Shown one piece after another: positions 5,973-35,508 of a stretch of 64,000 nucleotides of DNA. The notes under the pieces were generated by a model that did no database searches, was not told the DNA's origin, and worked only from the letters and a program-made list of their open reading frames with translations. A program made the translations under genes and the position numbers. Origin of the DNA: Vicia villosa (taxonomy: Eukaryota; Streptophyta; Magnoliopsida; Fabales; Fabaceae); the NCBI RefSeq assembly GCF_029867415.1, contig NC_081185.1, positions 71,247,156 to 71,311,155 on the forward strand, read 5' to 3'. Every line of letters starts with the position of its first letter. The stretch's first letter is position 1.

Positions 5973-6021
5973 GGCGCCGTCTAAGGTGAGCAACGTGGAT
6001 AGGTCTCTCACCGTGAGAGAC
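5973..6021 (+). repeat. MULE left terminal inverted repeat
   Basis: It begins GGCGCCGTCTAAGGTGAG and ends in a near-perfect palindrome with arms GGTCTCTCAC and GTGAGAGACC around one central base. It pairs with 35460-35508. The transposase is expected to bind and cut here. Confidence 0.9.
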
Positions 6022-6022
6022 C

Positions 6023-6439
6023 ATTTTTTCCTTTTTTTTTTTTTCAAATGAACAAGAGCCGTTAGATTAGCTGTCCCTAATGGTCACTCACTTCACTAAC
6101 ACACACCATATCACCACCATCCCTTACACCTTTTGCAAACGTACAACACACCTTTCTTCACCGTCCTTCTTCCACTGTGTCCTTCTTCCATTGTCCTTCT
6201 TCATTTCTTTTTCTGCAGCCATTACTCTTCTGCGTTTTATTTTTCTGAAACCATTTTCTTCTTCATTTTCTTTTGTGCTCCCTTCTGATTTCTTCTTTTT
6301 GCGCTCCCTTCTGGTTTCTTCTTTTGCGCTCCCTTCTGATTTCTTCTTCATTTCTTCCATTTTCGATCCTCTTCCATTAACGATTTGTGTCTGAAGCAAG
6401 TTTTTGTGCTTAGTAAAAGTAACAGATATTGAGTTAAAG
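6023..6439 (+). promoter_or_regulatory. Probable promoter and leader region of the MULE transposase
   Basis: The 417 bp between the left terminal repeat and the transposase start codon hold no gene of their own. They contain a long pyrimidine run right after the repeat and tandem-like CTTCTTTTGCGCTCCCTTCTG segments at about 6280-6350. MULE transposases are usually transcribed from a promoter in or next to the terminal repeat; I cannot pinpoint a TATA box. Confidence 0.45.
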
Positions 6440-9132
6440 ATGGATGGTGGTGACGTTATTGGCCATGGAGTAATGCAAGTTAACTCTGTAAGTCAATTTT
6501 CAAACAATCTTATCTTGTGGTTGTAACCCTAATTGATGGTTGATTTACTATTTAGTTATTTATATTTTTTTAGGAAGCACACGATGGGATTTTTCATGAG
6601 AATGGTCGTGTTAACGATGACGGTGAACTGGATTTTGTTAGTGATGGATGCTTGGATAATGTTGAATATGACAACAGAGTTGTTGATGAAGATTCTGAGT
6701 TTGAAGAAGTTGAATACTATGATGAAGATGCGGAAGAAGATAATGAATTTTACGGATGTGAATACGATGATGAAGATGGAGATGATGATGGCGAATTAGA
6801 TGGTGATGATTATGATGACGAGATAGGTTCCGGTTATGTTAGTGGACACAAATATTGGAATACAGATTCAAACGGCGGTGGAATTTCTGGGGAAGGATCG
6901 GAATGGGGTTCGGACAGATTGAATGAATCGATATCTTCAGATCAACTTCCAGACGAATCATTTGTTGTTGACGAGTTTGACGACATTGCAAATATGGACA
7001 TGTTTAACTTGCAATGTGATGATGTTTCGAAGCTGCAATTTGGAAGTCTGGAAATAGCTTACACATGGTACTGTTGGTTTGCAAAGATGAACGGTTTTGC
7101 AGTCCGTAAAGGTCAAGTTATTAAAAAAAAGAGTGGAGATGTTACTCAACAAACATTTCTTTGTAACCTTGCAGGATTTAGGCAAAACAAAGTAGATAAT
7201 CGCAAACGTGGTCCGAGGCACGAAACCCGGTGTGGATGTGAAGCAAAATTTCGGGTTCATATTGATATAATTTCACACCGTTGGTATGTCACAGTTTTTA
7301 CCTTTGAGCACAATCATGCAATGTTAAAGGAGAAGCACTGCAGGCTGTTGGAAGGTAATAGGAAGCTTAGTAAGTCAGATAAGATGCAAATTAAGAATTT
7401 TGGGAATGCCGGAATCAAAGTAACTCAAATGATTGGTTCATTCGCTAATGCTGCCGGGGGGTATGATAAGGTAGGATTTTTGAAGAAGGATGTACATAAT
7501 CAAATTGCAAGACAAAGGAAAGAGATGTCTTCTGATGCTAAAGGTGCTGTCAGGTATCTTATTGATCTTCGTGTAATAGATCCATTGATGCTTGTTGCAC
7601 ACACGGTGGGTGCGGATGGAACGTTGCAAAACCTATTTTGGAGCGACGGTGAGAGTCAAAAGAATTATGAACTGTTTGGTGATGTGCTTGCTTTTGATGC
7701 TACCTACAAGAAAAATAAGTACATGTGCCCATTTGTTGTTTTTTCTGGTGTTAATCACCACAACCAGACGATTATATTTGCTACTGCCATAGTTTCAAAT
7801 GAGGTTGAAGGGACATATGTATGGTTGCTGGAGCAGTTTTTGGTTGCAATGAAAGGTAAGACACCTTTATCTGTAATAACGGACGGTGATGTTGCTATGA
7901 GAAATGCAATCAGGAAAGTCTTTCCCAACAGTTACCACAGGTTATGTGCATGGCATCTCCTACGAAATGCAATTTCCAACATTAGCAATCCCAATTTCAT
8001 CCCTGTTTTCAAAAAATTAATGCTTGGTGATCATGATGTTTGGAAATTTGAGAGTCTGTGGAATGAAATGTTAGATAGGTTTGGGTTAGAAGATAATAAT
8101 TGGATCAATGAATTGTACCAGAAAAGGAAGATGTGGGCAACAGCTCATATTAGGGGAAATTTCTTTGCAGGAATAAGAACGACATCGCGGTGCGAAGCAT
8201 TTCATAGTCATATGGGACAGTTTGTACACTCGAAGATGAATATGACTGATTTTGTTAAGCAGTTCCATAGGTGTGTGGCATATTTTCGATGTAGAGAGGT
8301 TCAAGCTGATTTTGAATCCCAATATGGACAGGCAGTGTTGCATACCAATCTTAGGGCGCTTGAGAGGTCAGCATCAAAGCACTGGACAAAAGAGATATTT
8401 GAAATGGTACGATCTGTTATGAAAAAGGTAACCTTAACATCTGTATTAGATATTCAAGATATGGCATCAGTTACCATTTATGCGGTGACAAAATACAGAG
8501 ACGAAGGGCATGGATGGCGTGTTTCCCACTGTCCATCGAATAACGATTTCAGATGCTCGTGTCTTAGAATGGAATCCATTGGGATTCCTTGTGAGCACAT
8601 TGTTGCTGTGATGGTTTATCTTAATATTGTAGAATTTCCTGAGAATCTTGTGCTGAATCGTTGGTCATTATATGCGAAGGAGTCTATTAGTGGAAGTTAT
8701 GAAGATGGTTCCCACTACTGGGATTCACATTTGGTTGCTAGACACGCTACTTTGGTGAATCTTAGTAAGGAGGTCGCTGACTTGTCATATATGGATGTTG
8801 ATGATTACAAAAAATATTTAGAATATCTGACTAATGAACTTTGTAGGCTTAAATCGAAGTACAACAATGAAGATGTTCCAGATAACATACATGTTGAAGA
8901 GGAGTTGGTGAATATACTTAACCCTTCATGTTCAAGAAGCAAGGGTTGTGGACCAGGTACTGTTGGTACATCAGAGAGACCCAGGCGGACACAGACGTGT
9001 GGGATATGCGGTGCAGCTGGTCACAACAGAAGATGCTGCCCTACTCTTGGAGCAGATGGAGAGCCTCCTGCAGATAGTTCTTTACAATCAGCATCTGTAA
9101 GGTTAAGTAATGACTATGGATTTTCAGTTTGA
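6440..9132 (+). CDS. mudrA: MURA/FAR1-type MULE transposase, 2 exons, 868 residues
   Basis: Exon 1 is 6440-6487 (MDGGDVIGHG..., donor GTAAGT) and exon 2 is 6574-9132 (acceptor TTTTAG). Together they encode 868 residues with no internal stop. A very acidic N-terminal tract (about residues 40-130) precedes a FAR1-like zinc DNA-binding domain (ETRCGCEAKFRVHID ... FEHNHA). The MULE transposase core follows: DAT in LAFDATYKKNKY is the first catalytic Asp, TDGD in VITDGDVAMRNAI the second, and SRCEAFHSHM carries the likely catalytic Glu. A SWIM zinc finger (CSCLRMESIGIPCEH) and a C-terminal zinc knuckle (CGICGAAGHNRRCCP) finish the protein. This is the enzyme that would mobilise the element. A domesticated FAR1-RELATED SEQUENCE gene is the alternative, but the position just inside a terminal repeat with target duplication argues for a true transposase. 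Confidence 0.93.
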
Positions 9133-10247: not shown

Positions 10248-13138
10248 CTAAGTCGCGGTTGTCATAACTTTCCAGTATTCCTTCGACTTCCAAATGAGCT
10301 CGTTGTTGCAGTCGTTATGGTTTCCCATAAGCAAACGCATAGTTACGGCCATCCTTGTGACAATCTCATTCATCTGGAAGTGAAATGTGAAATAGTTAAC
10401 AAAGATTATTTTTGGGGTTAAATGGTGATAATTTATTGTAAACACAATACATCAGAATTGCCATATAATCATACCACACCAAGAGTGTTGCTTGTGAAGT
10501 TGTTCTGCATATTCATCCACTCTACCACCCATAGTGCAGAGCTGTCGCTGCCAATACAACACAACGGGTTCAGTTTGACCAATTGTATATGGAAAGTGAT
10601 TGTCGATTGGAAGAAATTTGATACCTGGTTCCACAGTTTGGGATCCCCCTTGCCTCCACAATATCCCAGTATTCAAAGTCCGTCATCACGTGGAGTGAGA
10701 ATGAACTTTCATACACCGTTTCCACCAGCTTATTTAGCGCAGCTCCCTGATAAATTAAGAAGATATAGCTTATTATAGCTTCTTTTCTCAAACATGTGAT
10801 TATAAAATTCACTTATACTCACGATGTTTCTGATGGTGGACCTTCTTTCTGCGACCACGTCCTCGGTCAGATGCGAGTCCAAATGATAGATCTTGCGATC
10901 ATCTAATGAAATGACCATGAGGTACCAGTGTCCATGCTGGTCTTCTACTGGGACATAAATCTATAACGTATATCAAATTTTTGAACAAATCTGTTAATTG
11001 GCTTATGTAAAAAAGGAGGCAGTGCATACAACATCTAACGATTAGAGACAATTAAATGAAACATTCTACCAATCTCAGGTGATCAAAACGAACAGCCCAG
11101 TCATCTTTGTAAAACATGTGTAATTCCTCATGACCATTATTTTTAACAACATCTTCCTACAACCAACAGATAGTTTAATACATTAGCATGTGATTATCAC
11201 TTATTAGTAAAGACTCATGTAACATAAGCATCATGAATAATTTGGAGTTTATGGTAATTACCGCGAACGACGGAGGCAGGCACTACAAATTTTTGCATAA
11301 GTTTTGGTGTTGTGACCACATCACCTTCAACGCCATCATCAGTATAATCTGTTCCAAGGTTGGAATTCATTTACACCAGTAACCAGTTAGCCAACAAACA
11401 TAATACGTAAAATGATAGGTATGTGTATAGGTTAGAAATGTACCTCACTTGAAACCAACATTCCTGGACACATACACTCAAAATCAGCTCTGGTGTACGC
11501 TGTCCTACCAACCCTGAATATTGTATCACTGAAATACAACAACGGTTGTTAGTCATTGTTAAAGAGATTTCATAATAAGGTAATAAAATTCATGTCCACG
11601 TACGATGAGTCAAAGTCTTCTTGGAAGACATACGCACACACCCTGATTTCCGTTTGATCCAGTTTCATATCAGGGGAGGTCTTAACCGCGCATCTGAAAT
11701 GCTGCTTAATATAGGACTTGTTAAGAATATCATACACAATCGATATAAACATTGTTCTTTCATAAGTACTGCTTAATGAATTTTGATTACCTTCGGGACC
11801 ATTAAACCAGTACTGTTTCTGAATGCATTAGTCCTCCCAATAGCAACAGCTTTTTTAGCTCTACCGCCCGGAGATTGTCGTTTGACACCGAGTTATCTGG
11901 GAGTGGTTGCAGCTTTTCTCTGCAAGTTGCCAATAGCATTACCTGTAGGCCTCGACCCCTCTCCTGGTGATGGTGTGAATGAGAGCTTTCGACCCTTGGG
12001 AGTTGTTGATGTCGTCATCAGCTCCTTGTTTATTGAAATAAATATTAGAACAATTAATTTGAATAACATGGTAAATCAAGTGTTTAAAGTTTAAACAACA
12101 TTAACGTAAAACCATGCAAATATATGAGTGGAAGGCATGTCACCTTTGCATTAAACCTTCGGCTATAATCACTACTGAATGGCTTGTTGGTGTTGTCGGC
12201 AACTTCTTTCCCACCCCTGTTTGAATCGACATCAATGTATGGAAGTTTCCCATAGCTTGTGTTTTGCCGTTTGCAAACAGTATCGGTACGTACGTAGTTG
12301 TTATGGGAGACTGTTCTTTTTTTAGCATTCATTCTTTCCTCGGAGTCGTAGTCAGATATGTTTATTGTACCAAAGTTCTTCAGTTTCTCCATCCCTCTGT
12401 CCATCATCTTTTCTTTGCCCCGATCATTTCCATCATCTTCTGCATCAGGGGAATATCCAGAGCTAGCATGGACAACTTTGTCTTTGAACCTTGGGCTACG
12501 CATTTCCCCACCTACTTTTTTTAGTATCTCTTTTTGATTGAACACAAGTTTGGTCATCATGTCGTTGTGAGAAATCTCCAGAATATCTATCCTGAAACTT
12601 AGTTTCTGCATCATACACAATGGTTGAACCATATCAGTAGTTATATAACACAAAAGTTCAACATAAAACGTTTCAACACAACTCTTATATCTCTTTTTTT
12701 ATAAGCAATGGATTTTATTACTCAGCACCAGTAGTGCATTTCCACATTACAGAGTTGTATGAATATTACAACTCTTATACAGTTATATACTTATATTTTA
12801 AAAGCATGTTGGTTTCAAAAATGTTTACCTCCACGGCATCCAACACATCAGCTAACGTGACTTCTTTGGAGCTTACATCAGGTTTAAATGAGTCGTGATC
12901 TACATCTTGTCCAACCCTTGGAATGGTTGATGAACAAATCCTCTCGCCCATCTTTGAGGAGTTTTTGTCACCATCCCTACATAAACACCACAACCTTTAT
13001 TACTTATGTACATGAACATATAAAAATGTAACACATAAAGACATACTAATAAATATTATTAAGAAGGAAAACTTGCATTCCGTTGTCTTTTGAATGGCCA
13101 GGGATCAACACAAAGTCGTTGCATCTTGTTGGTTCCAT
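10248..13138 (-). pseudogene. Ulp1/C48-peptidase-like gene of the MULE, broken by two nonsense codons
   Basis: Minus-strand exons that all keep phase: 12976-12829, 12605-12144, 12024-11791, 11701-11604, 11528-11444, 11348-11262, 11156-11070, 10960-10823, 10746-10625, 10547-10475 and 10373-10248. The first coding exon, perhaps from ATG at 13138, is uncertain. The N-terminal half is a predicted coiled coil plus basic linker. The C-terminal half resembles the Ulp1 cysteine peptidase (de-SUMOylating) fold: GRTAYTRADFECMCPGMLVS, the His motif QHGHWYLMVISLDD, the Asp in YHLDSHL, and SDSSALWVVEWM where the family has a Cys-Gly-containing motif. By my hand alignment the catalytic Cys is Ser. In-frame stops are TAA at 11895-11893 and TAG at 11285-11283, the latter where relatives have Trp; both fit C-to-T-type change. 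About 560 codons in all. Ulp1-like genes are well known in plant MULEs. Confidence 0.82.
12690..12767 (-). mobile_element. 5'-truncated LINE insertion (78 bp) in an Ulp1-like intron
   Basis: A poly-T run followed by ATAAGCAATGGATTTTATTA (the reverse complement of a LINE tail) is bracketed by a perfect 12-bp duplication, ACAACTCTTATA (12678-12689 and 12768-12779). The tail resembles the 3' end of the large LINE at 35850 (ATAAGCAAGAGATTTTAATA). This is the signature of target-primed reverse transcription that stopped early. Confidence 0.8.
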
Positions 13139-13744: not shown

Positions 13745-14593
13745 TCACTTAACATGTTCATTAGCTAAAACTTGGTTACTGAGGAGCCTGTTTTCTGCTT
13801 TCAAAGTAGCAATCTCCATGTTCAGTTCAAAGTTTGCATCCCTCGCATTTTGAAGTTCTTCCGATAGTATTTGGACGTTATAGTAGTTGTAATCACAAAT
13901 CCTTCTACCTGTTGCGCAAAGCAAACGACGCATTAACAGCACCGCAACATCTTCCTTCGCGTCATAGTCGGTCTTCACAAAACGGCCAACTGAAACCATA
14001 GATTTGGAAAACAAAGGACTACACAAACAAGCATGATACCTTAAAAATTGGAAACCATGTTCAACCTTGACTTCGTGTAGATTGTATACCGGTACAAGGA
14101 TTCTCATACGGTTGCAAACTACCTCTACCTGTTTTTGTATGCTATTTTGTAGAACGATATCCTCCGCGTCTGTCTCCTCGGCCAAGTTCGACAAAACCGT
14201 AGCTTATAATACAAATAAAAAAGGTTCATAAAGGTTAATAAAGGCCATACATAGTTACATATCATGGTTATCGTTTAATATTATAAGCAACGTATATATA
14301 CTACATAACATAAGGTTGTATTGTATCAACTTACACGACAGATCTTGAGAAGGCTGAACTTTGTCGTCTGCATACGAACACTCTTCAGATTCGCACGAGT
14401 TGATGTTGTGATGTTGTTCATAGACACGACCTACTTGTTTGCAATATTCCGTGTATGCCCTTTCAGCTTGCTCAAGGCTGTAATATTTGCCATGTGCGTT
14501 GTTACTCCATTTGTTAACTTGAGCAAAACATTCAGGCCACGACAAATATATACCTGGGTTACGACCTTCAAAAACTACGTATACTTTCTCCAT
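13745..14593 (-). CDS. RNase H1 N-terminal (viroplasmin-type) domain protein of the MULE, 2 exons
   Basis: Exon 1 is 14593-14335 and exon 2 is 14202-13745, joined in phase (donor GTAAGT, acceptor TTATAAG) to give 238 residues. I chose the ATG at 14593, which directly precedes the domain. Residues 1-50 (EKVYVVFEGRNPGIYLSW ... YYSLEQAERAYTEY) match the small domain found at the N-terminus of eukaryotic RNase H1 and in caulimovirus viroplasmins, which binds RNA-DNA hybrids or double-stranded RNA. The remainder has no RNase H catalytic domain. It contains a compact Cys-containing region and ends in a Leu/Glu-rich coiled coil (about residues 190-235). The gene is divergent from B3-A and lies head-to-tail behind the Ulp1-like gene. 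I do not know its role; nucleic-acid binding and dimerisation are inferences. Confidence 0.75.
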
Positions 14594-16725: not shown

Positions 16726-17246
16726 ATGAATCACGGAAGCAGGTAATAAGTTATAAAATAGTTTGGTTGTTTGTTATACAAATGTTTTTGAAATGCATCT
16801 GTTGTAATATGTTACATATTGCAGTTCAAATGAATCATCAGATGATGGTGGAGCTGATGGATACTACTGGGAGGAAACCATTACATCAGGCTACACTGCA
16901 AGCCGAAATGTTCTTGTAAGTATATACATGTTATTCAATATGCTGCTTCCATGTTTCATTAACACTAACTCAGGTGTTGTAATCATATATTCTGCAGCAT
17001 ATTCCAAGGAGAGTCTGTAGGTCCTGTAGCTTTTTCTCTTCAATGATAGAATTGTGTGATTATGATACAGGACTTACACATGATTGCATCATCCAGAGTG
17101 AAACTCTTGACGGTGTAGAGTATCTGTATATAGGGGAGGGGTGGTACCAATTTGCAAGGAAGAAAGTATTCAGGAGAGGTGATCGGGTAGGTTTTACCGT
17201 TTCACTGGTTCCTAATAGGTTGTACGTGAAATTGTTGAATCGTTGA
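16726..17246 (+). CDS. B3-A: small B3-like DNA-binding protein, 3 exons, 118 residues
   Basis: Exons 16726-16742, 16825-16915 and 16998-17246 keep frame (357 bp) and use GTAATA and GTAAGT donors and GCAG acceptors. The short N-terminal part is Ser/Asp-rich (SSSNESSDDGG). Exon 2 ends in WEETITSGYTASRNVL, and exon 3 opens HIPRRVC. The last exon is a compact B3-like fold: strand motif SMIELCDYDTGLTHDC, then EGWYQFARKKVFRRGDRVGFTV and NRLYVKLLN. The G-W-x-x-F-x-(6)-GD-x-(2)-F pattern is the core of plant B3 DNA-binding domains, although the barrel is shorter than in ARF or LAV proteins. It is one of five paralogues in this transposon and the shortest. DNA binding is inferred from fold resemblance; the target is unknown. 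Confidence 0.82.
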
Positions 17247-18699: not shown

Positions 18700-20648
18700 T
18701 CATCTCTCCACACAGACTAATATCCTTGTGGCTGGAGGGTATCTGATGCAGAAAGACAAAACATCACCTACTCTTAGATCACGGTCTTTTGCAAAGCGGT
18801 ACCAATCACGGCAAAGATACTTTTCCACCTCATCGTCCCGTCCCCCCATTTCACACTGGTAGGTTTCTCCCGTGTCGGTGTCAAAAAGTTCAATCGTATC
18901 CTGGGGGGCGGACAAACAGGTCCTTATCACATGTCTTGGAATTTGCTGCACATATTCAATTTAATGAAATCATTTACCGTCAAATAACAGAACTAATCAA
19001 TATCATTATAATTTGTCAATATGCAACTTACAAGCACATTATTCCTGATAGTCTTAGTCTTCCCCGACTTCACCACTAGCTCCCAGGTGATCTCTTTACT
19101 TTCAAACTCAGTGTTTTCCTCCCTTTCTTCATCACTATATTCACATTACATGCAACATAGTCAACTTAAAGTTAACACACTTTATAATAAAACAGCCACT
19201 TTGGTTAACATGATGTGATAATAATCGTGAGTCGTGACCTCAAAATACTATCAGTACACCGTAAGAATAGTGACTAATAAAACAGCTTACCATGTCGTAT
19301 CTGCAACAGCACGTTGAATATCATCCTTAGCAGTTTTGCTTGTTTCAACATCATCTTTACTTCCTTCACCACCCGATCCCAGCACTTCCTCCTTACCCGG
19401 TTCCTTGTCTTCAACATCATCTTTACTTTCTTCACCACCCGATCCCAGCACTTCCTCCTTACCCGGTTCCTTGTCTTCAACATCATCTTTACTTCCTTCA
19501 CCACCCGATCCCAGCACTTCCTCCTTACCCGGTTCCTTGTCTTCAACTTCATCTTTACTTCCTTCACCACCCGATCCCAGCACTTCCTCCTTACCCGGTT
19601 CCTTGTCTTCAACTTCATCTTTACTTCCTTCTCCACCCGATCCCAGCACTTCCTCCTTACCCGGTTCCTTGTCTTCAACTTCATCTGTACTTTCCACATA
19701 ACACATTCCCAGCATCTCCAAACAATATTCTTCATATGACAACGTTTTCCTGGTCTCTTTTGTTCGCATAAATCGGTCGGCCTCATAATGCAGATAACCG
19801 TTGTACAACCTTTCCCTGACGTCTTCGTCAAAGTGTAGCTTCTTCAGATTTCGAGATCTGCATAAAATAACACATGTAACAAACATTATTTATACACCAT
19901 GCATATTCCAGTTAATAACAATTGTGTTTATCTCTACCTCTTCCATTAACTAAAATCTTACAGCTTTCTTTATATATCATGATCAAGAAAAAGACAGTAC
20001 TTACTTATCATGACACATGCAGATATCATGAACAATAAATCTGAATCGAAAACACGACCACTACATGTTGTACTCAGCAAAACTTTTGCATAAGTTGCAA
20101 CATAGTCATAATCAGTCAATACTCAATGTATATATTGGAACAACAGAACCACCACATTTATATAATGCTAAATAGTATACCTTGCCGCCTCGGGTGACAT
20201 TGATAAATGAGTAGGAAAAGGGATTTCCTTATCTGCTTCAAGTTCTTCATTACTTCCCGCCTCACCAGATTGCAGCACAATCCCACAAAATTCTTCATAA
20301 GATATGGTTTTTCTGATCTTATTTGTTCTTAGCTCCCGCTCTTCCTCGTGATCAACATAGTTGTCGTACATCTTTCGAAGTTCATGCTCTTCGAAATGTC
20401 GTCCATTGTGGGTTTCAGATCTGCATAAAACATAAACTTTCAAGACACATTAGATATACACCATGCATGCCGGTAGAAATGTGTTAGGCCTCTCTGTAAG
20501 TCTACCATAAATGGGTAACACAACGATTCTTTACGGTTCAGAAGCGGTTTCATGAGGGAACATGGTACAATATGAAATTAACACAAAGGGAGTGTTAAAC
20601 ATGGTACGCTTACCCAGAAAGTCTTTGTCTTTTATCTCCATTAGCCAT
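18700..20648 (-). CDS. B3-B: B3-like protein with internal 22-residue repeats, 5 exons, 396 residues
   Basis: Minus-strand exons 20648-20614, 20420-20181, 19857-19291, 19134-19032 and 18945-18700 total 1,191 bp in frame. The last exon encodes the B3-like fold (QIPRHVIRTC, DTIELFDTDTGETYQCEM, RDWYRFAKDRDLRVGDVLSF, YPPATRILVCVE). The preceding exon ends KSGKTKTIRNNVL, as in its paralogues. Exons 2 and 3 begin with versions of the same unit (compare RKTISYEEFCGIVLQ with RKTLSYEEYCLEMLG), so an exon has been duplicated. Exon 3 then carries about five tandem copies of a 22-residue acidic/Gly repeat (EDKEPGKEEVLGSGGEGSKD). The gene is intact. The acidic repeats could serve as an interaction or activation region, which is speculation. 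Confidence 0.82.
19345..19680. repeat. 66-bp tandem repeat inside B3-B exon 3 (about 5 copies)
   Basis: The unit contains CCACCCGATCCCAGCACTTC on the plus strand and recurs every 66 bp with few differences. The period is a multiple of three, so the gene frame is kept and each copy adds 22 residues. Frames on the opposite strand are also open, but these are shadows. Confidence 0.93.
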
Positions 20649-22233
20649 TTTCAGCCGTGAGACCGCCGGTGATGGAGGCTGTGTTGATGGGGTGTGGTGT
20701 GGGGTTACTGTTGAAGAAGCAGCTCCTCTCACTAGGAAACTAAAGAGACGTTGCTATTCCTCTTTCAATCTTCCGTTTATTTTGGCTACTAAAAGTCTAA
20801 AAGCGTATAAATGAGTTAGTCTCTACACGTGTTGACACTATTTTTTATTGTTTAAAATGTTTTATGGTGGCATATATTTTAAAATCCATTAAAATTTAAA
20901 GTTACAATTTGATTTGGAAATGTGTAATAAAATAAGAGAAATAGGGTGATGCTCCCTGACAGTGTAAAATAATTTTACACTATCAACCAATCACACCCCA
21001 TGCATCTAATTATACCACACTTTTATTTTGAAAAAGTTTTAATGATATGGCAGATTGTTTGTTTTCTATTGGATGACAGTGTAAAACTAATTTACACTGT
21101 CAATGCATATCCATTAAACCCTAAAATCAAAAGAGTGTATTTAAGGAATATTGTGTTTGCTATGTTGTAAACAAGATTAAAAATATTGATAAATTTTTAA
21201 AAGTGAATGTGAAAACATTTATTATTATATAAAAAAATAAATACATTAATAATTATTCAACAAATGTTTAAATGTAAAAGAGATCAAGAATAAAATTATT
21301 TACTACTTTATTTTTATATATAATATAAATATTGAATTTAAAATAAAAGAGATCAAGTCAAAGAATAAAATTGTTTTTAAAAATTAATTTATGAAATGAT
21401 TATTTTATGTTTCATAAAAAATAATAAATAAATAGTAAATATATATCTTTATTATTATTTTTATTAATAATTTTATAAATATAAATAAGGTGTTGATTTA
21501 AATATTTATTAGGCTAATATTATTATCCAAAAATTATAATAAATAATAACAATTAAAATCAAATAAATATAAATATTTAATTGAGTTTCTTTTTTTAATA
21601 AGTAGCATTTCTACACATAACATGTAAAATTGAGGTAAAACGAGGCAATAACAAAAACTAAAAGAAAACACATTTTATTTAAAATTTGAGAATCATTTTG
21701 CATATTTGTTTCAGATTAGAGAGAAAAAATAATCGTTGCCACATATAGAAAAATATATTTAATTTTTTAAAAACAACCTGTTCTTATGGCGGATCTTCTG
21801 TTAATTGACAAATCAAATAAACCAGAGTAGCTTCCTCGTCAATTTGTTTATTTAGAAACCATAGTTTGTTGTTACCGAGCCAAGCTATTTCAGTTAAATA
21901 TTTGTTGAAAACAGTTTATGTCACAATTTTATTTTCACAATTCTAAAATTCAACAAACGCATTGAGAATTATTGATGACAAACAATCATCAAAGATAAAG
22001 AAAGCATTCTTAAAACATTCGGAATTGCGATTCAACCATAGAGTCAATGTCATTGACTACCAAACAAACAAACTGCAGTTGATGTAAACATATATACTTC
22101 AAAACAAGTCTTGTATCAACTAAAAATAACTACCAAAAAACCAACATTGTAATTGTACCATATATAATACAAAAAACTAATAATGTTTGAGATTAAAGCT
22201 CCTTAAAAAACAGGCCACCACAACCAAACAAGA
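20649..22233. other. Spacer between B3-B start and B3-C end
   Basis: Holds the B3-B promoter (20649-20830), a MITE (20945-21115) and AT-rich DNA. No gene is seen. Confidence 0.5.
20945..21115. mobile_element. MITE with ACAGTGTAAAAT subterminal repeats, copy 1
   Basis: About 170 bp with TGACAGTGTAAAATAATTTT near the left end and a matching inverted copy near the right end (ACACTGTCA). Each end is itself palindromic around TAAAATAATTTTA. The copy at 23731-23896 is homologous in inverted orientation, so this is a repeat family. Exact termini and target duplication are unclear. Confidence 0.65.
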
Positions 22234-23444
22234 CTAAGGATTTCTCAACGTAACGTAGAGACGTCTCGGTGGCGATGTTATTGTGAAGAACAAAATGTCT
22301 CCGGTTCCAAGATTCCTGTTTTTCGCAAACTGATACCATCCTTGCCCCATGAATTTTTCCTTTTTCAACAGTTTCTTCCTCTTCCTTTTGCAGCCAATTT
22401 CAACATAATAGTTCTTGCGAGTGTCTTCATCTATAAGTTCTATAGATCTCTGGTTCCAAAACAGGTAGTGTTTGGTAACACAGCGAGGGAAATGCTGCAT
22501 GAAAAACAAAATCCAAGCTAACTCACTTAAAACTATTTCAAATCATAATTCAAACAATAGTTATAACCAGTCTACGACATTACCAGGACATTCTTCTGCG
22601 CACTTTGACCGTCTTTCACCACTCGTTTCCAACAGTAATCATCCGGGTATTCCTCATCACCTGATTCATCACTTTCCGAACCAGAGCTGTGAACATCCAC
22701 ATTTGGATCTCTCAGTTCTTTCCGAACTCGCATCTGAATAGCAGTTAATCTTTCAAATAGTCCATCATATGATTCATCAGAGGTATCGTCTCTGCAAAAT
22801 CATAGAGTACAACATTAACTAATGACTTAAAAAACGGGAAACTGCATTACATTAAAACATGATACTTACGGGTTCACACCATTTACTTCCACAACGTCTC
22901 CAACGACGCTTTCACCATTTGCTTGCCCAACAACAAATTCAGAAGAGCTGTACACAAAACCCTAATAAACTTACCATCCACATAATATCCCAAAATACAA
23001 ACCTAACGCATATTTAAAATTTTAAATACCGTAAATCTAAATCAGCTGTTCCAAACAAATGTAGATTATAAAAAAAAATGCAAAATAACAGAGTTTCCTT
23101 CAATGGGCCGATTACAGATCAAAACATAACAATGTACTGGAACTGGATAACTACAACAACACATACATTTTTGAAAAAGAAACAACAATCAAAAAATGGG
23201 TACCAAACATCTACCATGCAAAACGAAATATAAACATTTCCTTCAATGGGACTACAGATCAAAACATAACAGTTGTACTGGATAACTACAATAACACCTA
23301 CATTTTTGAAAAACAGACAACAACCAAAAAAATGGGTACCAAACATCTACCATGCAAAACGAAATATAAACATTCACTACTTCCGATCAACGTCAACACC
23401 TACACGTACCTCTTATCCTCTACTATCGGCACAGGGGTAGACAT
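22234..23444 (-). CDS. B3-C: B3-like DNA-binding protein, 4 exons, 193 residues
   Basis: Minus-strand exons 23444-23410, 22947-22870, 22791-22584 and 22494-22234 total 582 bp in frame. The start ATG (MSTPVPIVEDK) lies in a 35-bp first exon, the same length as B3-B exon 1. The middle exons are acidic (NVDVHSSGSESDESGDEE). The penultimate exon ends KRVVKDGQSAQKNVL, and the last exon begins HFPRCV. The B3-like core is RSIELIDEDTRKNYYVEIG, a Lys/Arg-rich loop (KRKRKKLLKKEK), GQGWYQFAKNRNLGTGDILFF and PPRRLYVTL. The basic loop could double as a nuclear localisation signal. B3-C and B3-B are in tandem on the minus strand. The gene appears intact; function is inferred from the fold only. Confidence 0.82.
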
Positions 23445-23730: not shown

Positions 23731-23896
23731 AGGTACTCCACTGACAGTGTAAAATAATTTTACACTGTCATCCAATAGAAAATGATAAAGGTGTCATGTC
23801 ATTTAGTTTTTTTTAAATAAAAAAATCTTTAATTAGATACATGGGTGGTGATTGGTTGACAGTGTAAAAGTATTTTACATTGTCAGTGCATCACCC
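23731..23896. mobile_element. MITE with ACAGTGTAAAAT subterminal repeats, copy 2 (inverted relative to copy 1)
   Basis: CACTGACAGTGTAAAATAAT at the left is mirrored by ATTTTACATTGTCAGTGCAT at the right. Its internal sequence matches copy 1 at 20945-21115 when reversed (CAACCAATCAC near one end in both). Confidence 0.68.
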
Positions 23897-23936
23897 CTTT
23901 TCTCTCTCTATCTATCTCTCTATCTATCTCTCTCTA

Positions 23937-24138: not shown

Positions 24139-24690
24139 TTTATGACCGTCATCGGTTCATCTATAACACGCTTCACACAAAGTTGACAATCGTCAGTTGA
24201 ATCTTTTACATGGTTATCACATAGTTGACCGTCATCGGTTGAATCCCTGACATGTTCCACACATATTCGGACCTCATCAGTTCATCTGTAACACGCTTTG
24301 CACATAGTTAATTAACCGTCATTAGTTGTGTCCCTGACATGGTTAACACATTTTCGGACCTCATCAGTTCATCTGTAACACACTTCGCACATAGTTAATT
24401 AACCGTCATTAGTTGTGTCCCTGACATGGTTAACACATAGTTGACCGTCATCAGTTCATCTGTAACACGCTGCGCACATAGTTTACCATCATCAGTTAAA
24501 TCACTGACATGGTTAACACATAGTTGACCGTCATCAGTTGAATCCCTGACATGGATCACACATGGTTTACCATCATCAGTTCATCTGTAACATGCTTCAC
24601 GCATAGTTAACCGTAATCAGTTCATCTGTTACACGCTTCGCACATAGTTGACCGTCATCAGTTGAATCCCTGACATGGTTGACACATAGT
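24139..24690. repeat. Decayed array of the 42-bp unit (about 13 copies)
   Basis: Units built from TGACCGTCATCAGTTGAATC, CCTGACATGGTTAACACATA and variants CATCTGTAACACGCTTCGCA repeat with a period near 42 bp. The motif ATCAGTTGAATCCCTGACAT is shared with the large array at 28556-32047. These units are much more diverged from one another than those of the large array, so this is the older or relic array. Confidence 0.85.
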
Positions 24691-26430: not shown

Positions 26431-27248
26431 ATGGCATCTGCAAGGTAAGTTTTAGATCATATGTTAGTATTATTTGTTTGCATGCTCTGTTTAACAAATA
26501 ATCTTTAACATGGTGTGTTGATTCCAAAACTTCTTTTTGCAGATCTTTTTTTACAGACCACAGTGAAGGGAAAAACGATGAGGAGGCCAGAAGCAAATCA
26601 CCAGATTGGTCATTGTTGTAGGTTCTGAAACTTTGATCACTTAACTCACACACATAGCTTTTGAAAGTGTAGATTTTATTTATATGTTATTGCAATCATC
26701 GGTTATTTATATGTTATGATGTAAGCTGATTTATATTTCCTTGCAAAATTTATTTTAGTCGGGATGTAGTGTCTGTTGGTTATGACATTGTTGGAAGTAG
26801 GACCCGTCGTTCATCATATTGCTTATGGAAGAGGGAGGTTAAAGATGCGCAGATTGCTCGAAGTAACCTTCTTGTAAGTTAGTTGCTAAAACCATAAACA
26901 TGTACATATATGAATTTAGTTTATTTTATATTAAGCGTAAACATAAAAACTAACATTGGTTGAGATGTAAACGTGCAGCAAATCCCGCAGGAAGTTGTTA
27001 TGACTGGCCGTCTTCAGCAAGTGAGGTATATCGACATTGTCGATGGCATAACCGGTGACACCTATCAGTCTGAAGTGCATACTTTTGAGAGGGGAGGCCA
27101 CACTGAGAAGTATTTAGGTGGCGGCTGGAACAGGTTTGCAAGGAATCTGGGGCTATGCAATGGAGACTTGGTGGGATTCAGCATCAAGTATCCTCCTGCT
27201 GAAGAAATCGTTGTCACAGTTTTGAACATTGAACACAGGGGATGGTAA
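26431..27248 (+). CDS. B3-D: B3-like DNA-binding protein, 4 exons, 157 residues
   Basis: Exons 26431-26444, 26543-26617, 26759-26873 and 26979-27248 total 474 bp in frame. The first exon is tiny (MASAR). The exon 2 donor is the least certain; GTAGGT at 26618 avoids an immediate stop. Exon 3 ends WKREVKDAQIARSNLL, matching the pre-B3 linker of its paralogues. Exon 4 opens QIPQEVV and shows the B3-like core: RYIDIVDGITGDTYQSEV, GGGWNRFARNLGLCNGDLVGF and YPPAEEIVVTVLN. The gene is transcribed away from B3-C and towards the large minisatellite. It appears intact. Role inferred: sequence-specific DNA binding in the nucleus. Confidence 0.8.
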
Positions 27249-28206: not shown

Positions 28207-28277
<71 letters not shown>

Positions 28278-28555: not shown

Positions 28556-31500
28556 TACACACATAGTTTGACATCGTCATTTGAATCCCTGACATGGATC
28601 ACACATAGTTCGACATCATCAGTTGAATCCCAGACATGTTCCACACATAGTTCGACATCATCAGTTGAATCCCTGACATGTTCCACACATAGTTCGACAT
28701 CATCAGTTGAATCCCTGACATGTTCCACACATAGTAAGACATCGTCAGTTGAATCCCTGACATGTTCCACACATAGTTCGACATCATCAGTTAAATCCCT
28801 GACATGTTCCACACATAGTTCGACATCATCAGTTGAATCCCTGACATGTTCCACACATAGTTCGACATCATCAGTTGAATCCCTGACATGAATCACACAT
28901 AGTTCGACATCATCAGTTGAATCCCTGACATGTTCCACACATGGTTCGACATCATCAGTTGAATCCCTGACATGTTCCACCCATAGTAAGACATCCTCAG
29001 TTGAATCCCTGACATGGATCACACATAGTTCGACATCATCAGTTGAATCCCTGACATGTTCCACACATAGTAAGACATCATCAGTTGAATCCCTGACATG
29101 TTCCACACATAGTAAGACATCATCAGTTGAATCCCTGACATGGATCACACATAGTTCGACATCATCAGTTGAATCCCTGACATGTTCCACACATGGTTCG
29201 ACATCATCAGTTGAATCCCTGACATGGATCACACATAGTTCGACATCATCAGTTGAATCCCTGACATGTTCCACACATAGTTGGACATCATCAGTTGAAT
29301 CCCTGACATGTTCCACCCATAGTAAGACATCATCAGTTAAATCCCTGACATGTTCCACACATAGTTCGATATCATCAATTGAATCCCTGACATGTTCCAC
29401 ACATAGTTCAACATCATCAGTTGAATCCCTGACATGTTCCACCCATAGTAAGACATCATCAGTTAAATCCCTGACATGTTCCACACATAGTTCGACATCA
29501 TCAGTTGAATCCCTGACATGTTCCACCCATAGTAAGACATCCTCAGTTGAATCCCTGACATGGATCACACATAGTTCGACATCATCAGTTGAATCCCTGA
29601 CATGTTCCACACATAGTTCGACATCATCAGTTGAATCCCTGACATGGATCACACATAGTAAGACATCATCAGTTGAATCCCTGACATGTTCCACACATGG
29701 TTCGACATCATCAGTTGAATACCTGACATGTTCCACACATAGTAAGACATCATCAGTTGAATCCCTGACATGTTCCACACATAGTAAGACATCATCAGTT
29801 GAATCCCTGACATGTTCCACACATAGTTCGACATCATCAGTTGAATCCCTGACATAGATCACACATGGTCCGACATCATCAGTTGAATCCCTGACATGTT
29901 CCACACATAGTTAGACATCATCAGTTGAATCCCTGACATGTTCCACACATGGTTCGACACCATCAGTTGAATCCCTGACATGTTCCACACATAGTAAGAC
30001 ATCATCAGTTGAATCCCTGACATGGATCACACATAGTTCGACATCATCAGTTGAATCCCTGACATGTTCCACACATAGTTCGACATCATCAGTTGAATCC
30101 CTGACATGTTCCACACATGGTTCGACATCATCAGTTGAATCCCTGACATGTTCCACCCATAGTAAGACATCATCAGTTGAATCCCTGACATGGATCACAC
30201 ATAGTTCAACATCATCAGTTGAATCCTTGACATGTTCCACACATAGTTCGACATCATCAGTTGAATCCCTGACATGGATCACACATAGTTCCACATCATC
30301 AGTTGAATCTCTGACATGTTCCACACATAGTAAGACATCATCAGTTGAATCCCTGACATGGATCCACACATGGTTCCACATCATCAGTTGAATCCCTGAC
30401 ATGTATCACACATAGTTCGACATCATCAGTTGAATCCCTGACATGTTCCACACATAGTTCGACATCATCAGTTGGATCCCTGACATGTTTCACACATAGT
30501 TCGACATCATCAGATGAATCCCTGACATGGATCACACATAGTTCGACATCATCAGTTGAATCCCTGACATGTTCCACACATAGTTCGACATCATCAGTTG
30601 AATCCCTGACATGTTCCACACATAGTAAGACATCATCAGTTGAATCCCTGACATGTTCCACACATAGTTCGACATCATCAGTTGAATCCCTGACATGGAT
30701 CACACATAGTAAGACATTATCAGTTGAATCCCTGACATGTTCCACACATAGTTCCACATCATCAGTTGAATCCCTGACATGTTCCACACATAGTTCTACA
30801 TCATCAGTTGAATCCTTGACATGTTCCACACATAGTAAGACATCATCAGTTGAATCCCTGACATCTTCCACACATAGTTCGACATCATCAGTTGAATCCC
30901 TGACATGTTCCACACATAGTAAGACATCATCAGTTGAATCCCTGACATGTTCCACAAATAGTTCCACATCATCAGTTGAATCCCTGACATGGATCACACA
31001 TGGTTCGACATCATCAGTTGAATCTCTGACATGTTCCACACATAGTTCCACATCATCAGTTGAATCCCTGACATGTTCCACACATAGTTCTACATCATCA
31101 GTTGAATCCCTGACATGTTCCACACATAGTAAGACATCATCAGTTGAATCCCTGACATGGATCACACATAGTAAGACATCATCAGTTGAATCCCTGACAT
31201 GTTCCACACATAGTTCCACATCATCAGTTGAATCCCTGACATGTTCCACACATAGTAAGACATCATCAGTTGAATCCCTGACATGTTCCACACATAGTTC
31301 GACATCATCAGTTGAATCCCTGACATGGATCACACATGGTTCGACATCATCAGTTGAATCCCTGACATGTTCCACACATAGTTCCACATCATCAGTTGAA
31401 TCCCTGACATGTTCCACACATAGTTCGACATCATCAGTTGAATCCCTGACATGGATCACACATAGTTCCACATCATCTGTTGAATCCCTGACATGTTCCA

Positions 31501-32047
31501 TACATAGTTAGACATCATTAGATGAATCCCTGACATGTTCCATACATAGTTAGACATCATCAGTTGAATCCCTGACATGTTTCACACATAGTAAGACATC
31601 ATCAGTTGAATCCCTGACATGTTCCACACATAGTTCGACATCATCAGTTGAATCCCTGACATGTTCCACACATAGTTCGACATCATCAGTTGAATCCCTG
31701 ACATGTTCCACACATAGTTCGACATCATCAGTTGAATCCCTGACATGTGACACACATAGTTCGACATCATCAGTTGAATCCCTGACATGTTCCACACATA
31801 GTTCCACATCATCAGTTGAATCCCTGACATGTTCCACACATAGTTCTACATCATCAGTTGAATCCCTGACATGTTCCACACATAGTAAGACATCATCAGT
31901 TGAATCCCTGACATGTTCCACACATAGTTCGACATCATCAGTTGAATCCCTGACATGTTCCACACATAGTAAGACATCATCAGTTGAATCCCTGACATGT
32001 TCCACACATAGTAAGACATCATCAGTTGAATCCCTGACATGTTCCAC
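28556..32047. repeat. Large 42-bp minisatellite, about 83 copies
   Basis: The unit is GTTGAATCCCTGACATGTTC followed by CACACATAGTTCGACATCATCA and recurs every 42 bp for 3.5 kb. Copies differ mainly at two sites: TTCCACAC versus GGATCACAC after CATG, and the AGTTCGAC / AGTAAGAC / GGTTCGAC / AGTTCCAC block. The variants are interspersed rather than blocked, which suggests repeated unequal exchange of mixed blocks. Since 42 is a multiple of three and most frames of the unit lack stops, long minus-strand frames arise with a 14-residue period (HVRDSTDDVELCVE). These are interrupted by a few stops and one indel near 30361, and I do not regard them as a gene. The array lies inside the MULE between B3-D and B3-E. 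Confidence 0.95.
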
Positions 32048-32054
32048 TAGTGAT

Positions 32055-32400: not shown

Positions 32401-32599
32401 AATCCACTTTGCCATTAATGAAAAACTATTTTTCCTGTTAGTGTGTTTTGGAACATCAAAACAATGAAAATTAAAAAAATAAAAACAGAGGTTAATATGT
32501 TTGCATAAAAAGTAAGGGTGAAATTAGGGTTTATTTCCATCTTCAATCGATACTGCTACTGCCAACGGCATTGCGCGAGATTCACGGACACACACGACC

Positions 32600-34105
32600 A
32601 TGGCTGAATGGGGAAGGTTTGTTCCAAAAATTTGTTTAATTCCTTGATCTTAAACTGTTCTTCTGCTTCTCCAATATCGGGTTTTCATGTAATGTGTTTG
32701 TATAATGTCTATAATGCAACCTGATAATCATACTGTATTTGAAGAAGACAGTAATATTCGTGTAAAAAGTGATACGAGATATTGAAGTGGTTGTTTGTTA
32801 AAATGCAGGGTGAAAGAAGGAAGCTGCGATGAGGATGATTCCCAGGAAAGGAAAATACCTGGGAAACGCACAAGGAGCTTTGTTTTGAAGCAAATGTTGG
32901 AGGAGGTCGCCAGGAACAAGAAAGAAAGCAAAGTTAAAGGTAAAGACGGTCAAGGAGAGATGCCATCATCTGCATCCCAAAGGTACTTAACTTATGATTT
33001 TTAATAACATGAAAACCAATTTCTCCTTGCCATTTCTTGTTGAGTAGGATGCAGGTATGATTGTAACCATTAAGTGTTTTATTGGACCCTGATATGATGA
33101 ACTCACTACCAGGAAACATAGTCTGCATAAGGATACTTCCAACATTAGGAAGGAAAAAGGCACCATGGAGAAAGGAAAAAGGAAATGTGAGGGAAGTGGT
33201 GAGGTAGAGAAAGGGAATCTTAAAAGAGAAGGATGTGCTGAAGGTGGTGTTGGTTGCAGCACAAACATAAGGGTAAGAACATGGAGTCTTCGGATCTCCA
33301 CGACATTCAAAGAGATGAGCATGAATACACAACTATATCATCGGATAGCGAGAGGTAAATCAAATGTGTACTGGAATTGTGTTGAAGTAACTGCATAAGC
33401 AATTGTTTGACCTTTTTATACATTGTGTTCGTATGAAGCGCCGACACGCCATTCAGAAGGCGTGTCGCCGCGTCGGACATGGATACTCGCACGACACGCG
33501 TATGACACGTACATTGCATTGTTATATTAATATATAAAATATGTTCTTGCCGTGTCTGTGTCCTATGTTTTCTGTATTAGCGGAGTCCTCGTGTCTGATG
33601 ATATGTCCCGTGTCCGAGTCCGGGCTTCATGTTAATTGTGATTTTGTTTCAGTGTTAGGGTGTATAGCCCTATAATTGTGGATCAGGACGAAGAGATGTG
33701 GTCGCGAGAAGTAGTTGATGCGAAGAGGACGCGGAGTAATGTTATGGTAGGAAATGAAAAAATTTGATCTGTTGTATTATTTCAATTGTGTTTGAATTGT
33801 ATTGAAGCTGATAATGATTTCTACTTAATTTGCAGCAACTTCCAGCCAACGTCATCGACAGCTGCCAGCTGCGAAACTTTTCAAATATTGAGCTCTATGA
33901 CTGTGACAATAATGAACCCTATGACTGTGAGATTAAGAAGAATTTGAAGAAGAAGGAGTGTTATTTGTGTAGGGCTTGGTTTGACTATATAAGGCATGCT
34001 GAAGTGCAGGTTGGTGACAAACTTCGCTTTGCCATCCGTTACCCACCAGCTGAACAAATCATGGTTTATGTTGAGCGTAGGGGTGATACCGCAGGAGGAC
34101 ATTGA
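32600..34105 (+). CDS. B3-E: B3-like DNA-binding protein, 6 exons, 246 residues
   Basis: Exons 32600-32616, 32809-32982, 33113-33203, 33260-33354, 33653-33746 and 33836-34105 total 741 bp in frame. The intron between exons 3 and 4 (33204-33259) is only 56 bp, so that junction needs a transcript. Exons 2-3 are strongly basic (KIPGKRTRSFVLKQMLEEVA, NKKESKVKGK, KGKRKCEG) and may contain a nuclear signal. Exon 4 is acidic and ends TISSDSE. Exon 5 ends MWSREVVDAKRTRSNVM, the shared pre-B3 linker. Exon 6 opens QLPANVI and carries the B3-like core: SNIELYDCDNNEPYDCEI, CRAWFDYIRHAEVQVGDKLRF and YPPAEQIMVYVERR. Here the usual GWY.FA is changed to AWFDYI. The gene is the last one before the right terminal repeat. 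Confidence 0.78.
33436..33631. mobile_element. GC-rich MITE-like insertion in B3-E intron 4
   Basis: A GC-rich island with ATGAAGCGCCGACACGCC at the left and, in reverse complement, ATGAAGCCCGGACTCGG at the right, rich in CGTGTC/GACACG motifs between. The inverted ends and base composition suggest a DNA-transposon derivative. I could not find a clean target duplication, so ends and class are tentative. Confidence 0.5.
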
Positions 34106-34340
34106 AAGGATCCGTCGTGAATGAATTGCTGCAGAATACTCAGTTTTTTTTTTTGCAAACTGTATGTTATGTTGGGTGCTGAAATACTTGTAAAACATAA
34201 GCACTCATATTGAATATTTCAGGTTTTAAAAGAATACTTGTAATGTAGTTTATTTGTCTATTTTATCTATTAATATATCTAAAGTTTGTCTATTTTATTA
34301 TAACTATGTGTTGTTGATATTATTATTTTTATTATTATTA

Positions 34341-34372
<32 letters not shown>

Positions 34373-35459
34373 GTTATTATTATTATAGTTTTCTTATTAT
34401 AATTACTATTATTACTATTATTATTATTATAGGTCAATATAATTTATTTAAACGTCAAAATAATTGTTTTTAAATACAATAACTTTTAATTTAAATTAAC
34501 GTGAGATTTCTAAATTTAGACATAATTTATTTTTTAAATTAAAAAAAATCAAATTTTATAAAATACATTTAGCGTCAGATTTTGTAAGTTAATTTTTTTT
34601 TTAAATTTAAGTAAACATCAAGTTTTTAAATTTTCAAACAATATTTTTTTAAATTTAAAAACGAATTAAAATTAACGTGAGATTTTATAAGATTAATATA
34701 ATTTATTTTTTAAATTAAAAATAATCAAATTTTACTAAATAAATTTAGCGTTAGATTTATTAAGTTAAATTTTATTTTTTTTTAATTTAAATAAACATCC
34801 AGTTTTTAAATAAAAAATAATATTTTTTAAACTTAAAAAAAATTAAAATTAACGTGAGATTTTATAAGATTAACATAATTTATATTTTAAATTAAAAAAA
34901 AATCAAATTTTACAAAAAATATGTTAACGTATTTAAATAAAAAATATGTTAATGTATTTTTAAAAAAATGTTATTGATTTTTTTAATTTAAATGAATATC
35001 AAGTTTTTAATTTAAATAAATAAATATGCAGTTTTTAATTTAAATAAATAAATAAATATGCAACTTTTCTATTATTAATTTTAATTTAGTAATGTTTATA
35101 TGTTAATGAGGGGGTGCAGGTTGCAAAATTAAAATATAATGAGGGGGTGCAGGCAGCAAATAGCAATACCAAAGATAATGCATTTGTTAATTTGCTGCAT
35201 TTCTCATTTTGCTTCCCAACAATTTTTCTTTTATTTTTTCAATTTTTTCAGCACTCAATTAATGCATAATCATTGGCTTGCAGCATTTTCAGCTTTACTG
35301 TACAATTTGCATTGGAAACAGCAATGTGAGAAACTATCATTAAAGCATTTTTATTGTGTGTGTTTGGTACACCATAGCATCCATGGGCCCAATTCAATCC
35401 AATGGTACCCCAATTCAATCCAATGGCAGAAAAGCATTTGAAACAAAAAAAAAAATTAA
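34106..35459. other. Right-terminal non-coding region of the MULE
   Basis: Contains the B3-E 3' side, a long (ATT)n-rich stretch (about 34318-34432) and several diverged copies of an AT-rich unit around TTAACGTGAGATTTTATAAG (near 34500, 34675 and 34855). A duplicated GAGGGGGTGCAGG occurs near 35108 and 35140. No gene is seen before the right terminal repeat. Confidence 0.55.
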
Positions 35460-35508
35460 GTCTCTCACGGTGAGAGACCTAAACAGGCCTCTCACCCTAG
35501 CCTGAGCC
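35460..35508 (-). repeat. MULE right terminal inverted repeat
   Basis: In reverse complement it begins GGCTCAGGCTAGGGTGAG and ends with the same palindrome arms as the left end. It is followed at once by the 9-bp duplication TATAACTCA. Confidence 0.9.

Follow-up and report, generated by a model that had tools for sequence, protein, structure and literature searches.

A probable 29.5-kb Mutator-like element of Vicia villosa with a transposase, an Ulp1-like gene and five B3-like genes

Two similar ends that face each other across 29.5 kb of the Vicia villosa genome raise the question of whether they bound one Mutator-like element (MULE) or are the remains of several. The window, that is to say the whole stretch of DNA analysed, comprises 64,000 nucleotides of contig NC_081185.1 (assembly GCF_029867415.1, forward strand, positions 71,247,156 to 71,311,155), and all coordinates below refer to it.

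Ends, target site and transposase

The features at and near the two ends are as follows.

5964..5972, no strand: left target-site duplication (TSD), TATAACTCA
5973..6050 (core 5973-6021), plus strand: left terminal inverted repeat (TIR)
6003..6021, no strand: subterminal near-palindrome GTCTCTCAC-C-GTGAGAGAC, identical in both TIRs and predicted to form a hairpin
6440..6487, plus strand: transposase exon 1, matching V. villosa P0002
6574..9132, plus strand: transposase exon 2, with FAR1, MULE and SWIM domains and no internal stop
35435..35508 (core 35460-35508, palindrome 35460-35478), minus strand: right TIR
35509..35517, no strand: right TSD, TATAACTCA

The initial annotation had reported inverted repeats with 39 of 49 matches, a perfect inner 22 bp and identical 9-bp flanks, and our comparison reproduced these values exactly. 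The gapless match between the ends at 5973 and 35508 (39/49) is composed of 17/27 in the outer part and 22/22 in the inner part, and local alignment stretches the TIRs to 5973-6050 and 35508-35435 (78%, E 1.5e-9). Whether taken as 39/49 or as 78 bp at 78%, these TIRs, together with a TSD of 9 bp, agree with the MULE norms given in the available text of PMC6446971 (TSD 8-11 bp, TIR 14-500 bp). A null computed for the left end alone, from 100 Markov sequences each 128 kb long, gave best matches to the left 49-mer that averaged 25.4 and never exceeded 28. The gapless runner-up partners in the window matched the left end at 27/49 and the right end at 26/49, and a gapped partner search of the window returned nothing beyond the two ends themselves and poly-T stretches. 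The 9 bp TATAACTCA adjoin both ends (9/9) and do not occur again in the window; given the base composition, the chance of such an identity at two given positions is ~8.6e-6. The inner 22 bp are a near-palindrome and therefore match in either orientation. The orientation of the ends is carried by the outer TIR part and the flanks.

Just inside the left end lies the transposase named in the initial annotation, which is confirmed by its domains and by an uninterrupted frame of 868 aa (Pfam: PF10551, E 3.4e-28; FAR1, 1.4e-16; SWIM, 2.8e-4). The protein differs from V. villosa P0002 at 10 residues. It contains D391, D453, and E557, which we take to be the DDE residues of a MURA-type transposase; among the 120 homologs listed, these presumed residues are kept in 118, 115, and 114, respectively. 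With these presumed DDE residues and a SWIM zinc finger, the protein has the characters of the MURA-type transposase of MULEs. Two distinct transposases occur in V. villosa: P0003 and P0002, the latter a cluster with 21 members (counted as sequences, not as loci). Pack-MULEs are defined as non-autonomous, with the transposase supplied in trans (PMC6431247, available text), whereas the transposase here is uninterrupted.

We conclude, with a probability of about 87%, that the segment is a single MULE of 29,536 bp, because (i) the two ends share TIRs and a TSD, and no other partner end was found in the window; (ii) a MULE transposase is located just inside the left end; and (iii) six-frame Pfam matches inside, the big array excepted, include no retroelement domain, and no flank homology was found. 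The proposal of one MULE between both ends is thus strongly supported, and the partner ends that two separate smaller elements should each possess were not found in the window. The limited likeness of the outer TIR parts (17/27) counts against the single-unit reading.

Accessory genes and tandem arrays

The remaining features of the element are listed below; for B3-like genes b to e the exon starts are approximate.

10266..12978, minus strand: Ulp1 (C48)-like gene, ~11 exon pieces, in-frame stops at ~11894 and ~11284
14330..14593, minus strand: RNase H1 N-terminal (Cauli_VI, "viroplasmin") exon
16726..17246 (exons 16726-16742, 16825-16915, 16998-17246), plus strand: B3-like gene a, complete 118-aa reading frame
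18700..19136 (18700-18945, ~19032-19136), minus strand: B3 exons of B3-like gene b
19287..20449, minus strand: probable upstream exons of gene b, including one duplicated exon and a tandem repeat of 66 bp
22234..22793 (exons 22234-22494, ~22584-22793), minus strand: B3-like gene c, probable first exon near 23.4 kb
24143..24690, no strand: older array of a 42-bp repeat, ~13 units
26760..27248 (exons ~26760-26873, 26979-27248), plus strand: B3-like gene d
28558..32047, no strand: younger array, 83 units of the 42-bp repeat (38 distinct)
33651..34105 (exons ~33651-33746, 33836-34105), plus strand: B3-like gene e

The Ulp1-like gene runs opposite to the transposase, as in KAONASHI-type Ulp1 MULEs. 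A six-frame Pfam scan gave no Ulp1 match, and the gene was recovered by homologs of the joined query. These homologs and the fold of homolog P0123 bear out the Ulp1 assignment, although the present copy has two in-frame stops. In the 17 of 21 Ulp1 homologs that were aligned, the catalytic columns hold His in 16 (1 gap) and Asp in 15 (2 gaps), and the Cys column, which was paired by eye, holds Ser in 15, Ala in 1, Val in 1, and Cys in none. Judged from this alignment, the relatives apparently lack the catalytic cysteine and, with it, an intact C48 catalytic triad. The viroplasmin exon is present as annotated but is probably not a separate gene: 14330-14593 and 13853-14005 together probably make up the 5′ portion of the Ulp1-like gene, an arrangement also seen in V. 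faba model P0124. V. faba has relatives of this Ulp1/Cauli_VI gene, and a single gene model there contains both parts in matching order. The genes named in the initial annotation are present, but the element as a whole, transposase included, has 7 or 8 genes and not certainly eight. DUF1985 gave no match at E 0.1 in three full-length Ulp1-like homologs (P0122-P0124). Nor did it appear in the six-frame Pfam scan, which covered the element apart from the big array and also missed the short Ulp1 exons, so that split exons can escape it.

The five B3-like genes, recognised as such from the start, form one paralogous family with one intron position common to all; both B3 exons are open in 5/5 genes, at 35-42% identity to gene b. 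Their assignment to B3 follows from sequence matches: (i) PDB profiles of TEM1 (E 1.6e-5), RAV1 (2.7e-5), and NGA1 (0.0017); (ii) Pfam B3 in 4/5 genes at E 1.1e-5 to 5.1e-3, below the curated cut-off, with no match for the fifth at E 0.1; and (iii) PF02362 in 3/6 B3-like relatives. A structure model of a single B3 exon was poor (mean pLDDT 53.7). In simulated neutral drift to the 35-42% level, a B3 exon of 80 codons stayed free of stops in 7.1% of 1000 runs. The exons at 19287..20449 probably belong to gene b, and their 66-bp tandem repeat (19339-19692) encodes an acidic peptide. Five relatives of the B3-like genes are annotated in V. villosa. The last exon of gene c is 100% identical to V. 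villosa P0143 over 86 aa, and P0144, P0145, and P0147, three distinct V. villosa relatives of gene a, comprise 4, 3, and 1 member sequences (not loci). V. faba holds relatives of gene b. Among proteins of 0.55-1.75x query length, a range that leaves long host B3 proteins outside, B3-like relatives were found in Vicia alone. No adjacent locus tags were seen among the transposase, Ulp1-like, and B3-like relatives in a by-eye comparison.

The kilobase-scale arrays of the initial annotation proved to be two arrays of one 42-bp repeat, which together occupy 4.0 kb and leave 25.5 kb of other sequence. A first 8-mer count (per 10 kb, 20.8 inside versus 8.4 for the flanks) suggested scattered copies of the motif, but this enrichment was dropped: outside the arrays the element is ordinary relative to shuffled units (8-mers, 53 versus a mean of 44, reached by 74/400 shuffles; 9-mers, 14 versus 11.4, reached by 119/400), and the flanks are poor (29 versus a mean of 56, reached by 400/400). 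Because the motif is not enriched outside the arrays, there is no link from them to the rest of the gene content. The CpG observed/expected ratio, considered as a trace of methylation, gave no clear message (0.61 in the element, 0.62 in the left flank, 0.68 and 0.56 in the right flank, 0.30 in the younger and 0.93 in the older array).

Possible roles of the encoded proteins

The transposase would bind the ends, most likely at the palindrome that both share without mismatch (28-49 bp from the tip), and would mobilise the entire element through a cut-and-paste mechanism. The small B3-like proteins, five in all, may bind DNA, most likely the 42-bp arrays or the TIR palindrome of the element, and, once bound, may regulate the element or shield it against silencing. 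Apparently devoid of a catalytic cysteine, the Ulp1-like protein would serve as a binding module and not as a protease. The mover enzyme, the five DNA-binding genes, and the arrays may together constitute a self-control system of the element.

There is a substantial chance, somewhat short of even, that the B3-like genes are instead passengers or decaying duplicates without a role. The match to Pfam B3 in 4/5 genes, never above the curated cut-off, and the ordinary motif content of the element outside its arrays point in this direction; the two exons open in all five genes, the intron position kept despite deep divergence, and the five annotated V. villosa relatives point away from it. That the B3 proteins act on the element's own DNA as control or protection is a tentative proposal drawn from sequence, which we consider rather doubtful, and VANC-like anti-silencing by these proteins is a guess. 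A more specific version is unlikely: the B3 family would recognise the element's own 42-bp arrays as a B3-based counterpart of VANC that arose independently in vetches, the proteins and arrays would co-evolve, and the MULE would thereby reach ~30 kb and stay mobile. Five diverged copies of a DNA-binding family beside single-repeat arrays make element-encoded control or anti-silencing directly testable.

There is a small chance of the Ulp1-like gene, and not the B3-like genes, being the anti-silencing or control factor, if there is any. Its orientation equals that in KAONASHI, and Ulp1-carrying VANC genes (KIU, Arabidopsis) are described as directing hypomethylation of related elements (PMC13317346, available text). 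Since the same text reports an Arabidopsis Ulp1 gene as part of a VANC gene, anti-silencing does not have to reside in the B3 genes. Against this role stand the two in-frame stops of the present copy and the three full-length homologs without a match at E 0.1 to DUF1985, a domain marked in VANC proteins (PMC5735166, available text).

Unity of the element and comparison with known systems

The single-unit reading has to be weighed against three other origins. A smaller MULE could have been enlarged later by nested insertions and repeat growth, which we regard as improbable. The arrays contribute 4.0 kb, and a ~170-bp palindromic, MITE-like sequence occurs twice inside (20935-21105 and 23739-23905); however, 25.5 kb persists without the arrays, and the genes of one B3 family span 17 kb in both orientations. 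Moreover, no LTR-like pair was found inside the element, and no reverse transcriptase or integrase matched Pfam there in the six-frame scan outside the big array, a scan that missed the short Ulp1 exons and could likewise pass over decayed or split nested genes. Macrotransposition, in which the left and right ends of related MULEs moved the intervening host DNA once, has a distinctly smaller probability: it would account for the TIRs being rather unlike outside the palindrome and predicts TSDs at the outer ends equally well, but neither end has an inner partner end left. In addition, V. villosa has further transposases and further B3-like genes of these kinds, and both gene b and the Ulp1/Cauli_VI gene have relatives in V. 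faba, as a lineage predicts. A chance pairing of the ends of two unrelated smaller elements is extremely improbable, given 39/49 matches against a null maximum of 28 and flanks identical at 9/9, even though MULE ends are common in legumes and the palindromic core fits both orientations.

If the segment is a single mobile unit, cut-and-paste transposons of plants are able to move ~30 kb with multi-gene cargo, well beyond the published sizes that we found, and this bears on how large gene sets travel in large legume genomes. MuDR of maize shares with the vetch element the transposase class, the TIRs, and a 9-bp TSD, but is ~5 kb long with mudrA and mudrB, compared with 29,536 bp here. The largest published MULE found, Mutavine-1 of grapevine (17.7 kb, 70-bp TIR; PMC2528002, available text), is likewise a large TIR-MULE with a transposase but is 12 kb smaller, in line with the earlier remark that the vetch element is unusually large for a MULE. 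According to the accessible part of a review, no Pack-MULE of Jiang et al. 2004 is above 7 kb (PMC6431247).

MULEs with Ulp1 domains are described in the available texts of PMC2528002 and PMC13317346 as KAONASHI (Arabidopsis) and from melon, rice, and grapevine. They have in common with the vetch element a MURA-type transposase, an Ulp1-like gene (opposite to the transposase also in KAONASHI), and a 9-bp TSD, and Ulp1 is also reported there in TIR-MULEs of grapevine and melon. They differ in that (i) KAONASHI is described as having no TIRs, whereas the vetch element has them; (ii) four grapevine families with a ULP region measure 7.1-16.2 kb (PMC2528002); and (iii) these texts, as far as available, describe no B3 genes, versus five in the vetch element.

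VANDAL elements and their VANC genes resemble the vetch element in the accessory genes beside the transposase, the tandem arrays in non-coding parts, and the peptide repeats in an accessory protein (PMC5735166 and PMC10398659, available texts). By contrast, VANDALs have degenerate TIRs there, and the vetch element has TIRs, gave no DUF1985 match in the scans described above, and has B3-like proteins as its candidate DNA-binding proteins. B3 genes in Mutator-like transposons were not found in the open-access literature searched. The suggestion of an undescribed lineage therefore holds in part: Ulp1-bearing MULEs are known already, and the novelty lies in the size of the element and in its five B3-like genes.

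Element ends and integrity

The inverted repeats at 5973 (left) and 35508 (right) are identical at 39 of 49 bases, with 17/27 in the outer part and 22/22 in the inner part. Both ends are bordered by TATAACTCA, which is absent from the rest of the window, and the inverted ends and identical flanks described in the initial annotation are thus confirmed. In 100 Markov sequences of 128 kb, no stretch matched the left 49-mer at more than 28 positions. A nearby partner of its own for each end, named earlier as the observation that would speak against a single element, was not found in the window, where the next best partners match just 27/49 (left end) and 26/49 (right end). By local alignment the repeat is 78 bp long, with 78% identity. 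The inner, perfectly common part is a near-palindrome that is predicted to form a hairpin in single-stranded DNA and occurs at only two sites in the window, both element ends, with up to 3 mismatches permitted. Because it is palindromic, it does not by itself establish the inverted orientation, which is proven by the outer part of the repeat together with the flanks.

A six-frame domain scan of the element outside the younger array (28558–32047) gave no match to retroelement domains, reverse transcriptase and integrase included; inside the element no LTR-like pair was found, and its interior has no detected homology to the rest of the window. The same scan missed the Ulp1 exons described below, and decayed insertions may therefore have escaped it. 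A single element, 25.5 kb long after subtraction of the arrays, is the simplest reading.

In the neighbourhood, a 142-bp tandem duplication (5660–5944) ends immediately left of the element, and a 50-bp direct duplication (35515–35615) starts inside the right target-site duplication. About 4 kb to the left, at 1261–1950, lies a piece of a zinc-binding dehydrogenase (ADH_zinc_N) gene, apparently a host gene, and LINE-like and copia-like ORFs were recognised by eye in the right flank (35959–39421, 41165–46107, 50233–52246 and 61944–63475).

Transposase and Ulp1-like gene

The main features inside the element are as follows.

6440–6487 and 6574–9132: transposase exons, 868 aa, no internal stops
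17.0 kb (+): B3-like gene a
18.7 kb (-): B3-like gene b
22.2 kb (-): B3-like gene c
24143–24690: older array of 42-bp units
26.9 kb (+): B3-like gene d
28558–32047: younger array of 42-bp units, 83 units, 38 distinct
33.8 kb (+): B3-like gene e

The transposase includes MULE (E = 3.4e-28), FAR1 (E = 1.4e-16) and SWIM (E = 2.8e-4) domains. Of the 120 homologs listed out of 294 found, 118, 115 and 114 retain the three residues that we take to be the DDE triad. Compared with the Vicia villosa protein P0002, which belongs to a 90% cluster of 21 member sequences, 10 of the 868 residues differ, and a second V. villosa protein, P0003, has 95% identity across 54% of the query. These matches suggest that the window comes from V. 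villosa or a closely related species.

Minus-strand exon pieces, joined into one Ulp1 query, retrieved 21 homologs among 3883 candidates; those with an organism name given are from legumes. Nine homologs aligned to the window mark out its exon pieces on the minus strand, between 12978 and 10266. The V. faba model P0124 (RYX36_029752) begins with a Cauli_VI exon, the counterpart of window 14593–14330, and then runs into the Ulp1 part, in the order found in the window. The Ulp1-like gene and the "viroplasmin" (Cauli_VI) domain reported initially were both recovered; on the evidence of P0124, the two are probably one gene, a reading kept at this strength because the homologs P0122 and P0123 have no Cauli_VI part.

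The window copy has two in-frame stops at places open in homologs. The predicted structure of P0123 has a mean pLDDT of 59, with 25 of 27 ten-residue blocks at ≥70 from residue 281 on, and its top structural match is yeast Ulp1 (E = 2.5e-8, TM 0.75 on target). Among the 17 of 21 homologs that entered the catalytic-residue alignment, His is retained in 16 and Asp in 15, the remainder being gaps; the presumed catalytic Cys column, as we placed it, reads S in 15, A in 1 and V in 1. Judged from these residues, protease activity is unlikely in this family, and the Ulp1-like proteins (10266–12978 and P0122–P0141) likely represent a transposon-borne pseudoprotease.

B3-like genes and arrays

The five B3-like genes form one family, because (i) their last exons are recognisably similar, (ii) an intron with a GT donor and CAG acceptor occurs at the identical place and phase in all five, and (iii) identity to gene b is 35–42% across the family. 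The family profile matches the B3 domains of TEM1, RAV1 and NGA1. Taken singly, four of the five genes match Pfam B3, all below the curated cut-off, and no match was found for gene e. A profile search restricted to proteins of 0.55–1.75 times the query's length hit 6 of 929 candidates, all from Vicia (five V. villosa, one V. faba). Of these, P0143 is 100% identical to gene c in its last exon; the last exon of gene a is matched at 90, 79 and 68% by P0144, P0145 and P0147, respectively; and gene b is matched at 74% by P0146 (V. faba) and at 52% by P0148 (V. villosa). No close relative of genes d and e was found among the six. When neutral drift down to 42% protein identity was simulated, one B3 exon stayed stop-free in 7.1% of 1000 runs; the five open exons suggest maintenance, short of proof.

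A 66-bp tandem repeat (19339–19692; 5.4 copies, 97% matches) encodes a repeated acidic peptide, which probably lies in one of the upstream exons of gene b; a stretch beside it occurs twice (19849–19904 and 20413–20468). A palindromic MITE-like sequence is present twice, at 20935–21105 and 23739–23905, on either side of gene c.

The arrays noted at the outset are borne out: both are built from one 42-bp unit, the older between genes c and d and the younger between genes d and e. Variation in the younger array clusters at unit positions 11–13 and 40–42. Words of the unit showed no enrichment in the element outside the arrays.

Proposed mechanism and comparison with known elements

The best-supported explanation, from the anatomy, is that the element's own transposase would move the whole unit by cut and paste. 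Their family membership suggests that the B3-like proteins may act on the element's DNA, and we hypothesize that they would bind the arrays and counter silencing.

In the open-access library searched, three papers mention a B3 domain together with Mutator-like elements, once each, and judged by their titles none of them deals with transposons; 11 papers mention Mutator-like elements together with Ulp1. Ulp1 domains are described in MULEs of Arabidopsis (KAONASHI), melon, rice and grapevine (PMC2528002; PMC13317346). Grapevine MULEs are tabulated at up to 17.7 kb, and those including ULP at up to 16.2 kb (PMC2528002). A giant-transposon review names CACTA elements of 16–20 kb and states that all Pack-MULEs of Jiang et al. 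2004 were at most 7 kb long (PMC6431247). VANDAL elements are described as encoding VANC proteins, which cause methylation loss; the motif bound by VANC21 is short and has accumulated as tandem repeats (PMC5735166; PMC10398659), and some VANC genes, according to a review, include an Ulp1 domain (PMC13317346).
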